This document shows, one piece after another, positions 5,915 to 28,895 of a DNA stretch of 43,506 nt. Each line of letters begins with the position of its first letter. Position 1 is the first letter of the stretch. The notes under the pieces are model-generated. The model did not search any database and was not told where the DNA came from. It was given only the letters and a program-made list of their open reading frames with translations. A program made the position numbers and the translations under genes. The stretch lies in the NCBI GenBank assembly GCA_029238785.1, contig JAQWFN010000132.1, positions 1 through 43,506 of the forward strand, in the 5' to 3' direction. The stretch comes from Flavobacteriales bacterium (GTDB taxonomy: Bacteria > Bacteroidota > Bacteroidia > Flavobacteriales_D > Sanyastnellaceae).

Positions 5915-8900
5915 CTAAGCAATGTTAAAGCTGGAGTTGGCGAACACCAAACAGTTTTGACGATCAAGTAAATCTTGAAATAGCGGGAGTAGCCTCTGAA
6001 CGTCGGCTTCACTCAAACCAGAAAAAATCTGATCGAATAAAAAGATCTTACCACGTTTTTGATGTTCTTCTGTCGTCATCAAACTGCACAGAAGCAAGGT
6101 GCGTTGCCATTCACCACTGGACAAAGTGGAGAGCTTTCGCCCGAGATTTAAATGAGCTAAGCCCAAGTTCATGATGAGCCCAAGGGCCTGGCTTAAATGC
6201 TCGTCCTTCTTCGAAAATTCAAAGAACAGTTCCCACTTCGGACTCAAATCAGCAATGCTCGATGCGAGCACTTCACCAATATGTTTTTGAGCAATACGGT
6301 GCTCTAGGATTTCAGGATTGAAGCCGCTAGCAGCACACCATTCGCAGGGAGTGTACAAATCATCAAGAAAATCCATGGCTATTTGTTCTTGGCCCTTTCC
6401 TTTGCAATGCGGACACCTACCTTCAAGACTGTTTAATGAAAAATGTTTGGCCTTTAAGCCAGCTTCAAGGGCACTTGTTGTTTTTCTGAACTTGTTTTGA
6501 AGAGGGAGGTCTAAATTCAGAAAGGAAAGCAAGGTGGTGTTCGGGCGTTTTGTTCGATTGTGGAAAAGGGATACTTCATCAGCCTTGAAATCGAACAATT
6601 CGAGTTTCGCGGTATGCATTGAAGTATGCTTAAATGATTTGTAAACAACACGCTCTAAAAATTGCGATTGAATAGAAGTTGGCGCGTCTTTCAATAAAAC
6701 CAGCTCTCCTTGATGAAACGTCAGTTCTGAAGGTGTTTGAGGATGAAATTGCAGCTGACTTAAACGAGCCAATGGTTTTCCTCTTTTTGAAATTAAGCCC
6801 TTCGCAGCAATAGCGTCTCCGTTTTTAAGCGATGATTTCTTCTGTTTTTGATAGTTAGAAAAGGAACCAGAAAAGAGAAGTTGTCCGCCTTTTTCACCAG
6901 CTTCCGGACCAAGTTCAATAATATGGTCGGCATGCTTTATGACCTCAGTATTGTGTTCAACAAGCACAATGGTATTCCCTTTGTTTTTCAATTGCTGAAT
7001 CAATTGAAGCATGGTCTTGATTTGATCTTGGTTCAAACCTAAACTCGGTTCATCCAAAATAAAGGTCATGGAACCCAAGGCTGAATGACTGGCAGCAGCG
7101 AGTTTGATGCCTTGTTTCTCACTCGGGCCAATTTCATTCATCGAAAGGGCCGTGTTGAGCTCACCAAGATTCAAGGCAATTAAGGCTTCTAAATGGGCTT
7201 TGAGCATGGTTTTGCTTCGAATAAAGAGTTTGTTTTCGAGCTCATTCGAACTTCCTTCCTCGAGAAATTGAAGCAAGTCAACAATACTTTTCTCGCACCA
7301 ATCATGATAGGATTCGCTTTTGTAGTGGTAACTTAAGGTTTGCTCATTCAGGCGTTTTCCTTCACAAGCGCTGCAATTTTCAGCTTCGAAAAGCAATTTC
7401 AGGCTTGCGCTATTTTTGTTGTTTTTCTTTAAGCTGTACTCTTCGTTCAAATAGTTTAAAAGACCTTTCCAGGGGGCGCTCAGGCTTTGTTCTCCAGACC
7501 TTGTTTTGTTTTTGAAAAACCATGTAGTTTCCCAAATTCGCTCACCGCTGCCGTAAAAAAGCAGGTGCAGGTCTTCTTCTTTCCATGAATTTAATGGGAG
7601 ATCAGGGATCTTGTTGACCTTTGCTACTTCACGCCAAATGGCCATGTATTGACTGTGTACATCACTATAGTAGTTCAATGCAGAGTTGAGCACAAAAGCG
7701 TGGTCGAGCATCTTTGTCCAATCAGCAACAAGGAGTTCTTTTTGAGCCAGCTTAATACTTCCTTTTCCCGCGCAAGTCGGACAAGCAGCTGCTTCTTTGT
7801 GAAAAGATAAATCCCCAGCTGAGATGGCAGCTTCGGGATGTTCTAAGTTGTATAAACGCGAGAACAAGAGTCGCAACTGAAAACTAATTCCACTGGTACT
7901 TCCGAGTGTTGATCTGCTGCTTTCGGTAAAGGCTTGAGCGCGCAAGGAAACACAAGGCGTAATTCCACTTGCCGATTCGAAATCAGCAGAATTATTGGTC
8001 CTCAATTGTGTTTTGAAATGCGGGTTCCAATTTTCCATGTAGCGCGCCTTACTTTCTGCGGCTAAGGTGTGGAAGGCAAGTGAGGTTTTTCCGGAACCAG
8101 ATGGGCCTACAATAATGTTTAGGCTGTTTTTCGGTAGATGAAGATCAAATCCCTTAAGGTTATGTGTCCGAACTCCTTTCAGCACAATAGCATCTTGAGC
8201 TGTATTTGAAGCAGGATTTTGTTGTTTACTTTGATCAATGGCTTGGAAAAAGCTGTCCAGATGACTTTCACCCAAAAGCGCATCTGCACCTTCAAGAATT
8301 GTCGCCCGAAAAGCATGCACTAGAAATGAATGTCCCTCAGCGCTCAGCTTCTTAAACACCTTCATTAATTTTTCAAGATCCAATTCGTGCAAACCTGCGC
8401 CCGGTTCATTAATCAGGAACTCCTGAGGCGTTTTATTGGAAGAAAGTAAAGCTTTGGCCAGCTTGATGCGCTGAGCTTCGCCACCAGAAAGGGTGTTCGA
8501 AGATTGTCCCAAGCTTAAATAAGACAAGCCAAGTTCGTGGAGTAGAAGCAAGTATTGACTGATGATTTCATCAGAAGTGAAGTGTTCTAGTGCTTCACGA
8601 ACGCTCATTTTGTAGACCTCTGCGATATTGGCCCCATGTAGTTTGGCTGCAAGCACTTCTGGTTTAAAGCGCTCACCGGCACATTCATCACAAAGCAATT
8701 CCACTTTTCCTAAGTAATGCATTCCAACTTCTAATTTCCCAGCACCAAGACAAGTTTCGCACCTTCCTCCTTTGGTGTTAAAGCTGAAACTACTTTTGTT
8801 CAAGTTCAGTCCTTCTCGCTTGGCTTCTTTCGCAAAACGGTCGCGTATAAGTTCAGCCAAACCAATGTAGGTGGCAGGGTTGCTCCTAGGAGTCTTTCCT

Positions 8901-14391: not shown

Positions 14392-15699
14392 TTACCTACT
14401 AATGACCAATTGCCTGGTTTCTTGCTTTCCTTGAATTTCGTCGTAAAAACGGATCAAATAAAGCCCTGAACTAAGCGCGTTGAGATCAATGCCCGCTCTT
14501 GTATACTCCCCCGAGAAGCAAATTCTACCGCAGGCATCAAGAATGTCAATTGCTTTGTTCAAGTCCACATTGCCTTCAATAAACAACCTGTCGCTTGCAG
14601 GGTTGGGATAAACAAAAGACAGCGGTTTTTCTTTATCCTCGTTCAAGTTTGAAGAGCAATCTAAACTCATGATGCGCTCCCAAATATCATCATGTAAAAT
14701 CGTGGAAACGAGCGCGTCTTCCGTGGCATTTCCCATGCGCACAACAATCAAGTCCTCACTTGGCGAAATGCTGAGAAGCTGTCCGTTTTTACCAATGGCG
14801 GCATAAACGTCGGCCGGGGCATTCGGACTAATATATCCGGGTATTTGTAACTGAAATCCAGGGAGCATGTAGTTTTCTTGTCCGTTCAACCACCAAAGGT
14901 AGCCGTAAGCCTTGTTCAGTGTTTGAGAAGGGCTAATCATGGCGTTGAAGTACTCTTGGTCTTCCATAATCGCTACACCATTCCACATGCCACCGTTGGC
15001 CATCAATACACCAAAGCGAGCCATGTCTCTAGGAGTGCTGAAAAAGACATTGTTGTAACCAATTTGAACAAATGCTCCTTGCATTCCAATGGGGATACCA
15101 AGTCGAGTGTAGGTGTAGAAGTTCAGGTTCATGCCTGTAGCATTGGAAATCACCTGATCGAGTAGGGTGTAGGGTGCATTGTGATACGACCATCTTTCTC
15201 CAGGAGTCTCCATGCAAGTCAAGCACTCAGGGTCAGTACAATCAAGATCTCCATTTTGATCATTAAGCCCAGTGGTCATGGTGAGTTGATTCAAAACGCT
15301 AATCTCTGCCTCATCAATCAAATCACAACTTGTCCAGCCTTCATCCAAATACAAATTCGCCGCATCATTAATGTCTAAAAAACCTTCTTCCTGAGCCATT
15401 CCAGTCATGAAGCCAGTTAAGGTTTTTCCCGCCGATGCCCAATACCACAGGCTATCCTGAGTGAAAGTGCCGTAATACTTTTCTAAAACTATTTTTCCGC
15501 CCTTCAATACAAGAAAAGCTTTGCTGTCTTCAGAGTCTAAAAAATCATAAAGTTCTAAGATGTGTTCCTCGCACCAATTCAAACTATCTGGCGAGAGCGT
15601 GGCCCATTCGTCGCCAACAACAGGAGGGAAGTAGCTTTCTTGTGCACTTAAGTTGATGCCAATAAGCGCAGCACTAATTATGAGTATAAATCGAGTCAT
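14392..15699 (-). CDS. Secreted serine hydrolase (beta-lactamase/class C fold) with T9SS sorting domain
   Basis: The 435-residue protein starts with a signal peptide (MTRFILIISAALIGINLSAQ). The beta-lactamase-type catalytic motifs are present: SxxK as SAGK (89-92), YxN as YHN (172-174) and a KTG-like GKNG (303-306). A Cys-rich loop (LDCTDPECLTCME) interrupts the domain around 152-163 and may hold disulphides or a metal. The last 75 residues form a T9SS type A sorting domain with YPNP at 364-367. The enzyme is expected outside the cell; its substrate (peptide, ester or peptidoglycan stem) cannot be deduced. It converges on the signalling cluster with only 33 bases between stops and no visible terminator. 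Confidence 0.88.
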   Translation of the reverse strand: MTRFILIISAALIGINLSAQESYFPPVVGDEWATLSPDSLNWCEEHILELYDFLDSEDSKAFLVLKGGKIVLEKYYGTFTQDSLWYWASAGKTLTGFMTGMAQEEGFLDINDAANLYLDEGWTSCDLIDEAEISVLNQLTMTTGLNDQNGDLDCTDPECLTCMETPGERWSYHNAPYTLLDQVISNATGMNLNFYTYTRLGIPIGMQGAFVQIGYNNVFFSTPRDMARFGVLMANGGMWNGVAIMEDQEYFNAMISPSQTLNKAYGYLWWLNGQENYMLPGFQLQIPGYISPNAPADVYAAIGKNGQLLSISPSEDLIVVRMGNATEDALVSTILHDDIWERIMSLDCSSNLNEDKEKPLSFVYPNPASDRLFIEGNVDLNKAIDILDACGRICFSGEYTRAGIDLNALSSGLYLIRFYDEIQGKQETRQLVISR

Positions 15700-27840: not shown

Positions 27841-28734
27841 ATGCAACAGTTTTCAATAAAAGATTTAGAGAACTTCACGGGCATCAAAGCGCATACCATC
27901 CGCGCTTGGGAGCAACGTTACGAACTTCTTGCGCCCAATCGTACAGACACCAATATTCGATTTTACACGGGCAAGGAATTGAAGCTTTTGTTGAACATTG
28001 GCTTACTCAATAAGTTGGGGTACAAAATTTCCAAGATCGCTGAAATGAGCGAAGAGGAAATGCAAGAAGCCATCTCGGCTGCGAATAACCCTGAAGGACA
28101 AGAGGCGCATTTCTTGAACATGTTGAAGTTGGCGATGCTGAATTATGATGAAGATTTATTTCATGAGATCGCAGATCGCTTCTTGGAGATGTACACGATA
28201 CGAGAGACCTTTGGAAGATTATTCTTGCCCTTCATGCAGCACGTAGGTGTTTTGTGGTTAACAAGTACCATTTGTCCGGCGCAAGAACATTTCATTTCAA
28301 ACCTTATCCGACAAAAGCTCTTTTCGCTGACTGATTCAATGAAAGACAAAAAGTCGGAATCAAGCGAAGACGAAAGGATCTTTGTGATGTATTTACCGGA
28401 ACAAGAAATTCACGACATCAGTATACTGTTGAGCCATTTGTTGCTTCGCGAAGCAGGAAAGAAAACCATTTTCTTAGGACAGAGTGTGCCTTTTGAAGAC
28501 CTTGTCCAAGTGGAGAAGAAATTTAGAAATGTGCATTTCGTTTCGATTTGTACAACTCATCCTTCAAACCAAGAGGTTGATCAATATTTGCAGCGCATTA
28601 AGTTGACTTTTGCCAAATCTGATTGCCAGTTCCACTTTACTGGTCTGGTTTTCACCGATATTACCACTCCAGATGCCAAGCACATCTCTTTCCATCACAA
28701 CGCGAACGTGATGATTGACGCACTTTTGGCTTGA
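27841..28734 (+). CDS. MerR-family regulator with B12-binding domain (CarH/LitR type)
   Basis: ATG 27841 gives 297 residues beginning MQQFSIKDLENFTGIKAHTI; an upstream TTG at 27817 is in frame but unlikely. An N-terminal MerR winged helix (SIKDLENFTGIKAHTIRAWEQRY) is followed by a helical domain with W139-x9-E149-H150, the motif that caps adenosylcobalamin in CarH. A cobalamin-binding Rossmann domain follows with E189-x-H191, where His is the expected lower axial ligand; the usual Gly of E/DxHxxG is Ser194. CarH/LitR proteins repress in the dark with adenosylcobalamin bound and are released by light. The next gene is an ECF sigma factor, as in LitR-LitS pairs, after an intrinsic terminator. 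A target array lies in that promoter. Confidence 0.9.
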   Translation: MQQFSIKDLENFTGIKAHTIRAWEQRYELLAPNRTDTNIRFYTGKELKLLLNIGLLNKLGYKISKIAEMSEEEMQEAISAANNPEGQEAHFLNMLKLAMLNYDEDLFHEIADRFLEMYTIRETFGRLFLPFMQHVGVLWLTSTICPAQEHFISNLIRQKLFSLTDSMKDKKSESSEDERIFVMYLPEQEIHDISILLSHLLLREAGKKTIFLGQSVPFEDLVQVEKKFRNVHFVSICTTHPSNQEVDQYLQRIKLTFAKSDCQFHFTGLVFTDITTPDAKHISFHHNANVMIDALLA

Positions 28735-28806: not shown

Positions 28807-28895
28807 TTTTGTTTAACGATTTCGATAAAAAATTGAACAAAAATTTGCTTTCAGACTAGTTTTGTTTAATCTTTGTCTCGATCACTTAAACAAAA
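28807..28895. promoter_or_regulatory. Four-half-site operator array before the ECF sigma gene
   Basis: Four 10-bp half-sites alternate in orientation: TTTTGTTTAA at 28807-28816, its inverse TTGAACAAAA at 28833-28842 (one mismatch), TTTTGTTTAA at 28860-28869, and exact inverse TTAAACAAAA at 28886-28895. The starts are 26, 27 and 26 bases apart; each inverted pair has a 16-base spacer. The array surrounds the -7 box at 28857-28864 and runs to 5 bases before the start codon, so bound protein would block transcription. The MerR/B12 protein encoded just upstream is the obvious candidate ligand (inference). Confidence 0.7.
28857..28864 (+). promoter_or_regulatory. -7 promoter element for the ECF sigma gene
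   Basis: TAGTTTTG is a full match to TAnnTTTG. A weak -33-like ATTG (28832-28835) lies 21 bases upstream. The box overlaps the third operator half-site, which would suit repression by steric block. The leader would be about 30 bases. Confidence 0.5.

Follow-up and report, generated by a model that had tools for sequence, protein, structure and literature searches.

A conserved array of two inverted half-site pairs between a CarH-like MerR/B12 gene and an ECF sigma factor gene in Flavobacteriales, likely a double operator

The CarH regulators of Thermus thermophilus and Bacillus megaterium combine a MerR DNA-binding domain with a B12 domain, and the Wx9EH and axial histidine motifs of the latter are said to define CarH homologues (PMC8156234). 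Their operators overlap the promoter and consist of 11-bp direct repeats, three or four in tandem, for which the core TnnACA (PMC9304148) and the longer consensus nAnnTnnACAn (PMC8156234) have been described. The CarA/CarH operator of Myxococcus and Cystobacter spans about 55 bp, was once described as two inverted repeats and is bound cooperatively by two dimers (PMC8156234, PMC9304148), although direct repeats are favoured there as the recognised element (PMC9304148). In Pseudomonas, the class II LitR proteins PmlR2 and PplR1 use two paired-repeat sites, one over the -35 element and the other in the leader, between the start site and the ATG (PMC9758184). In Bacteroidota, proteorhodopsin is common among marine flavobacteria (PMC5932025), and a study of light-responsive Chryseobacterium reported that car and lit genes are absent and that the regulator is unknown (PMC7064467). 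Neither a CarH/LitR operator in Bacteroidota nor a proteorhodopsin regulator of the CarH/LitR kind was recognised in the open-access literature searched, subscription journals being outside its scope. The terms MerR, sigma, motif and promoter are absent from the text of PMC5932025, in which proteorhodopsin-bearing flavobacteria were compared, and PMC11796333 and PMC12627116 contain no passages of relevance for Bacteroidota.

The locus described here lies in a stretch of 43,506 nucleotides from a Flavobacteriales bacterium (contig JAQWFN010000132.1), hereafter the window. A MerR/B12-binding gene and an ECF sigma factor gene are separated by an intergenic stretch of 166 bases, and the sigma gene is followed by a methyltransferase gene on the opposite strand. 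The features are the following.

27841 to 28734, + strand: MerR and B12-binding protein, CarH/LitR-like (Pfam MerR_1, B12-binding_2), the proposed reader of the array
28807 to 28816, + strand: half-site 1, exact TTTTGTTTAA, partner of site 2 in palindrome 1
28833 to 28842, - strand: half-site 2, TTTTGTTCAA, one mismatch, partner of site 1 in palindrome 1
28844 to 28847, + strand: putative -33 element TTTG, conserved right behind site 2, role inferred
28860 to 28869, + strand: half-site 3, exact, partner of site 4 in palindrome 2
28867 to 28875, + strand: putative -7 element TAATCTTTG, overlapping site 3 and resembling TAnnTTTG, role inferred
28886 to 28895, - strand: half-site 4, exact, ending 5 bases before the sigma start codon
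28901 to 29404, + strand: ECF sigma factor (Pfam Sigma70_r2, Sigma70_r4_2), the proposed target gene

The array is 89 bp long and comprises two copies of a palindrome of the form TTTGTTTAA-N16-TTAAACAAA, each 34 bp long, with centres 53 bp apart. An earlier note on this sequence had claimed four half-sites in + - + - orientation starting at 28807, 28833, 28860 and 28886, intervals of 26, 27 and 26, spacers of 16 bases in both inverted pairs and three exact copies out of four, and all of this held at exactly these positions, the single mismatch being in site 2. Its view that neighbouring sites, about 26.5 bp apart, lie on opposite faces of the helix was refined, since it applies to neighbouring half-sites only; from one inverted pair to the next the distance is 53 bp, or about 5 turns of the helix, which by arithmetic would place equivalent parts on the same face. 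With regard to the further claim that the array covers the -7 box and the start region, conserved promoter-like elements are enclosed by the array and the -7-like element overlaps site 3, with their roles inferred and no transcription start mapped. The -7 consensus is TAnnTTTG (PMC9723704). A perfect TAnnTTTG box (TAGTTTTG) is also found at 28857-28864, running into site 3; it lies outside the family consensus, unlike TTTAATCTTTG, and two alternative -7 boxes are possible in the window promoter. The TTTG(G) after site 2 and the TTTAATCTTTG running out of site 3 are better conserved in relatives than the 28857-28864 box.

The array shares the TnnACA half-site core with the Thermus and Bacillus operators, and the adjacent protein has the same domains and B12 motifs; an overlap with the promoter, as in those systems, is inferred from the conserved promoter-like elements that the array surrounds. 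What is new in relation to the CarH systems in the literature compared is that the window array does not consist of tandem 11-bp direct repeats, its half-sites being inverted at 26/27/26 with the pairs about 53 bp apart, and that the proposed target next door encodes an ECF sigma factor, with rhodopsin genes carrying the site as well. The array resembles the Myxococcus and Cystobacter operator as it was once described, with two inverted repeats, and differs in that its inverted repeats keep an almost constant spacing in many lineages. Among described layouts, that of class II LitR in Pseudomonas comes closest (PMC9758184); it differs in word and spacing (TGTACA-N12-TGTACA) and in being under LOV protein control.

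Single half-sites occur in the window at chance frequency, with 13 matches at one mismatch or fewer against 12.9 expected, whereas the array does not. When such half-sites were required to be spaced by 20-32 bases, the real window held two inverted pairs and one four-site array; one inverted pair was obtained in 60 first-order Markov windows and seven in 30 windows of local AT-rich composition, and no four-site array in any of these 90. The earlier claim that single copies, unlike the array, arise by chance in coding DNA was upheld, its example at 8804 being corrected to 8794-8803. Additionally, a strict pair pattern (10-base half-sites, spacer 10-22) was found solely at the two pairs of the array in the whole 3.11-Mb genome (132 contigs). 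The four-site array is genuine, well beyond chance expectation and strongly conserved.

The conservation scan of relatives that the earlier note had proposed was carried out, and order, spacing and position all proved to be conserved. The standard palindrome test used TTTGTTTAA-N16/17-TTAAACAAA with at most three mismatches, the reversed motif as control and genes chosen without the motif; mismatch limits were fixed only after first looks at the data, and related species were counted separately in every test. In a sample of 199 genomes from the order, the window's own among them, the pattern TTTGTTYAA-N12-22-TTRAACAAA was present in 101, against 9 for the backwards control (Fisher p 3e-27), and the spacer was 16 in 24 and 17 in 4 of the 30 returned loci even with 12-22 allowed. 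A match to the MerR protein (E <=0.001, some weak) was detected in 168 of the same 199 genomes, that is, in 97 of the 101 with the palindrome versus 71 of the 98 without (p 3e-6, uncorrected for kinship).

The region between the two genes, from the MerR match to the ECF start, was then considered in 57 loci picked by their MerR gene regardless of the motif and having both genes in place; the window itself (L033) was kept, while L122, which coincides with L034, and loci without one of the two genes were excluded. The palindrome was found in 55 of these 57 regions, the window's included, and the reversed motif in none; L042 and L046 had no palindrome within three mismatches. A chain of four half-sites, allowing up to 8 mismatches over its 40 positions, was recovered in 42 of the 57 (L052 was too short for this test), the lowest reversed control having 10. 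Its spacing was exactly 26/27/26 in 27 of the 42, 26/28/26 in six, 26/26/26 in three and different in the other six, and it mostly began 91-101 bases ahead of the start codon of the sigma gene, L053 and L093 being the exceptions. From 52 own-family regions, 34 had a 26/27/26 chain with up to 9 mismatches, and in the 18 remaining after removal of near-duplicates the site columns averaged 1.59 bits and the columns between sites 0.78. Sites 1 and 4 were both conserved, site 1 more weakly in its first three bases. Conservation in the same 18 arrays extended to TTTGG behind site 2 and TCTTTG behind site 3, which are read as -33 and -7 elements, a role that is inferred, and to short runs of T and of A within pair 1, on its inner side.

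Beyond the order, the best 80 loci of a longer list were obtained by ECF protein similarity alone from titled genome records; some of them (e.g. L231, L233, L237, L243) seem identical to places of other sets, a few to loci of the 57 regions. Their titles are mostly of Bacteroidota (Flavobacteriales, Chitinophagaceae, Saprospiraceae, Flammeovirgaceae, Sphingobacteriales, Bacteroidales), with a few metagenome bins named otherwise, e.g. Verrucomicrobia. A palindrome (spacer 15-17, at most three mismatches) was found within 350 bases upstream of the ECF gene in 62 of the 80, compared with 3 of 80 for the control (p 1e-23), and under these limits 18 had none. The palindrome was present in 45 of 46 loci with a MerR homologue in the fetched stretch and in 17 of 34 without. 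When the ECF upstream regions were pooled (152, of which 15 were motif-found, reduced to 141 by dropping 11 near-identical ones), two palindromes were seen in 94 of the 141 and in none of the controls. In a set of 188 palindromes the spacer was 16 in 161, 17 in 26 and 15 in one, only 15-17 being allowed. The 94 pair-to-pair distances fell at 33-37 (12), 44-46 (3), 50.5-58 (63), 62-64 (8) and above 90 bp (8). No specific 10.5-bp period was detected in these distances, with resultant lengths of 0.58-0.66 for all periods from 9 to 11; a helical phasing rule is therefore not upheld by the distribution, yet not excluded, and only the 53-bp arithmetic stands. The nine exact-pattern sites of two genus g38 genomes (G024 and G031) are all spaced by 17 bases instead of 16, a lineage-wide shift that would be expected if one protein reads all sites, which is no more than a suggestion.

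The protein encoded next to the array scored above the Pfam cut-offs for MerR_1 and B12-binding_2, the Rossmann part giving no separate Pfam hit, and its best PDB hit was CarH (5c8d by phmmer, E-value 1.4e-11). CarH was also its best NCBIfam hit, at 79 bits and far below the 400-bit equivalog cut-off; therefore, the window protein is regarded as a CarH relative and not as the named orthologue. Among 28 chosen homologues, W139 and E149 of Wx9EH and the lower-axial H191 are invariant and H150 is kept in at least 90%; the window protein holds all four residues, with ExHxxS and not ExHxxG at the axial histidine. Its AlphaFold2 model has a mean pLDDT of 90 and CarH crystal structures as best structural neighbours, the full-length match to 5c8e reaching Z 18.9 with 10.2 A over 270 residues. 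This full-length deviation is attributed to domain orientation, the B12 domain alone giving Z 18.3 and 2.3 A over 196 residues. The protein thus has the architecture of a MerR winged helix, a helical bundle and a Rossmann-type B12 domain, and its sequence, its B12-ligand motifs and its predicted fold all mark it as CarH-like; its adenosylcobalamin-dependent, light-sensitive DNA binding is inferred.

The half-sites point to the same family. Over nine positions in 376 half-sites, the best kept bases are T (98%), A (100%), C (99%) and A (99%), spaced as TnnACA, and all four are present in 363 of the 376. As for the longer CarH consensus, the A three bases before the T is unconserved here (153/376), and this extension was rejected. 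The earlier suggestion that a CarH-like repressor would fit is thus supported by protein sequence, B12-ligand motifs, predicted fold and the TnnACA core, with binding itself inferred.

The earlier note had treated the array as a feature of the ECF sigma promoter, a view that has to be widened, as the array is one of a larger set of sites. In the window's own genome, 8 sites with the fixed 16-base spacer and at most three mismatches were found versus 10 for the backwards control, and therefore counts alone prove nothing; the three-mismatch sites, one of them at window 14554-14587, look like chance and were set aside. At two mismatches or fewer, the only sites are the two of the array, one on contig 67 (two mismatches) with a rhodopsin gene 47 bp downstream, and another on contig 92 (two mismatches), 48 bp before a four-domain fasciclin gene. 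The latter is spanned by an open frame, and a photolyase gene starts 338 bp away on its other side. In a species of the same genus (L318), a perfect palindrome precedes the rhodopsin gene. The window genome also has a carotenoid cluster (L315:2791-9444) with two crtI-type genes and a crtB-like neighbour; no palindrome with up to four mismatches was present in 16 kb around the crtI genes, and the cluster was rejected as a direct target.

A non-exhaustive list of downstream genes was made at 70 motif-found palindrome loci, a few of them without a palindrome of the scanned type. By BLAST, these genes were ECF sigma factors (21), fasciclin-like (12), crtI-like (4) and FolE (3), followed at one to three loci each by rhodopsin, PTPS, START_2, DUF2805, DXS, MerR/B12, photolyase, DUF4397, TonB-plug and RpoD-like proteins and by several unassigned proteins. 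Pfam was used to check one or more members of every named group, and the ECF group was named by tblastn to the window sigma protein. Because these neighbours were motif-found, the rhodopsin and photolyase families were tested in reverse. Among the best-scoring 30 rhodopsin loci (Pfam model, with hits in 95 genomes altogether; L193 coincides with the motif-found L017), an upstream palindrome with at most three mismatches was found in 17, against 0/30 both for the reversed motif and for the stretch at the end of the same genes (Fisher p 6e-7, uncorrected for kinship); the other 13 had none within that limit. Among the best-scoring 30 PF03441 photolyase loci (the family being hit in 92 of 100 genomes; L210, L220 and L225 seem to have doubtful starts), no upstream site within three mismatches was found, equal to the control, and photolyase was rejected as a regular regulon member. 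Two palindromes do lie near photolyase-like genes, at 34 bp in L010 and at 338 bp in L164. A site was found upstream of the MerR gene in 20 of 39 loci outside the window's family and in 3 of 49 within it (23/88 overall; reversed control 1/88), and the best candidate upstream of the window's own MerR gene has 6 mismatches. MerR autoregulation is therefore suggested in many lineages and not in the window, an inference from sequence alone.

The most likely explanation is a double operator of two palindromes read by the adjacent CarH/LitR-type MerR/B12 protein. The site anatomy, its conservation, the gene set as read from the sequence and the CarH features of the protein are shown, and binding, repression, light/B12 control and relay are inferred. 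According to this model, whose light mechanism is taken from CarH (PMC8156234), the adenosylcobalamin-bound protein would occupy both palindromes in the dark, probably cooperatively. With pair 1 ending at the -33 element and pair 2 lying over the -7 box and start region, RNA polymerase would be excluded, and the 53 bp between the pairs, about 5 turns, would place both complexes on the same face. Light would break the Co-C bond of adenosylcobalamin, the oligomer would dissociate and the ECF sigma factor would be made. The same protein would act on single palindromes before the rhodopsin and fasciclin genes and, in relatives, before crtI-like genes, folE and its own gene. Purely by inference, the sigma factor may relay the signal to palindrome-free genes such as those of the own carotenoid cluster.

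Several points weigh against the double-operator reading. No binding, transcript or light data stand behind it, and the CarH/CarA operators of the literature compared are read as tandem direct repeats, not as inverted repeats 26 bp apart. The site is missing at all 30 photolyases, 13 of 30 rhodopsins, 18 of 80 ECF loci and 2 of 57 intergenic regions, and half of the ECF loci without a MerR homologue in the fetched stretch (17/34) still have the palindrome. Within the window's family, the MerR gene rarely carries the site (3/49). The extra sites of the own genome have two mismatches, the fasciclin one lies inside an open frame, and at three mismatches the count is 8 versus 10 in the control. 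Finally, the own carotenoid cluster has no site within four mismatches, no 10.5-bp period emerged, and only 79 of 400 CarH bits were reached.

Three other explanations were weighed. It is conceivable, and considered unlikely, that a different trans-acting regulator, for instance of the CRP/FNR type, owns the sites and merely neighbours the MerR gene. The palindrome before those 17 of 34 ECF genes speaks for it, as do four genomes with the pattern and no MerR hit and a Thermus CRP/FNR factor that also drives light-inducible genes (works cited in PMC7064467). Against it, the core bases equal the CarH TnnACA element, the MerR gene itself is preceded by a site in 20 of 39 loci outside the own family, and, of the four MerR-less genomes, G175 has only a hit with a 14-base spacer and the other three are 62-87% complete. 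Still less credible, and very unlikely, is that the repeats are a mere footprint of the -33 and -7 promoter boxes without any operator. In its favour, site 3 overlaps the -7 box, and words of the TTTG kind serve as promoter elements in the phylum (for the -7 box, PMC9723704). Against it, the two boxes are flanked by site 1 upstream and by site 4 downstream, both of them conserved, the order is inverted with near-fixed 16-base spacers, and hits of the reversed motif are few.

The remaining alternative, which is possible, grants that the MerR/B12 protein binds the array and denies that it is a light switch: the protein could be B12-independent like CarA, could depend on a partner photoreceptor as class II LitR does, or could sense B12 supply. 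This is favoured by the binding of CarA to its operator without B12 (PMC8156234), by PmlR2, which is under LOV protein control and has two sites around its promoter (PMC9758184), and by ExHxxS in place of ExHxxG at the axial histidine. On the other hand, both motifs held to define CarH (PMC8156234) are kept in the window protein, and several of the site-bearing genes are light-related.

The double operator read by the MerR/B12 protein remains the preferred reading, and a bolder version of it can be formulated, towards which the evidence leans only slightly. In this version, the general light switch of Bacteroidota would be a B12 photoreceptor of the CarH type that has an inverted-repeat operator code to itself. 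In the dark it would directly repress its own gene and an ECF sigma factor, together with proteorhodopsin, fasciclin, pterin (folE, PTPS) and crtI-like genes, and would so be a missing transcriptional regulator of proteorhodopsin in flavobacteria. If this is true, a 34-bp operator code would allow a light regulon to be read from genome sequence throughout a large environmental phylum, the switching of flavobacterial rhodopsin would become a question for gel shifts and mutants, and CarH-type proteins would be able to use inverted, widely spaced half-sites besides tandem direct repeats.

Some further neighbours of the palindrome were noted. Fasciclin-like proteins (e.g. L145, L156, L158, L160, L164) are the second commonest, and the two checked with Pfam both have a type IX sorting tail; the reason for light control of such a protein is not evident. 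In three genomes (L155, L159, L162), a palindrome precedes the gene of a CarboxypepD_reg/TonB-plug outer-membrane protein, possibly a transporter tied to the regulon. Additionally, two palindromes 54-55 bp apart are found in genus g33 of family f13 (L003:1447-1534 and L004:1446-1534), 163-226 bp upstream of an RpoD-like sigma gene of 287-288 aa, whose L004 copy has regions 1.2 to 4. RpoD-like copies number two each in G017, G047, G042 and G024 and one in the window genome, and a primary-type sigma paralogue may possibly be under a palindrome operator in genus g33.
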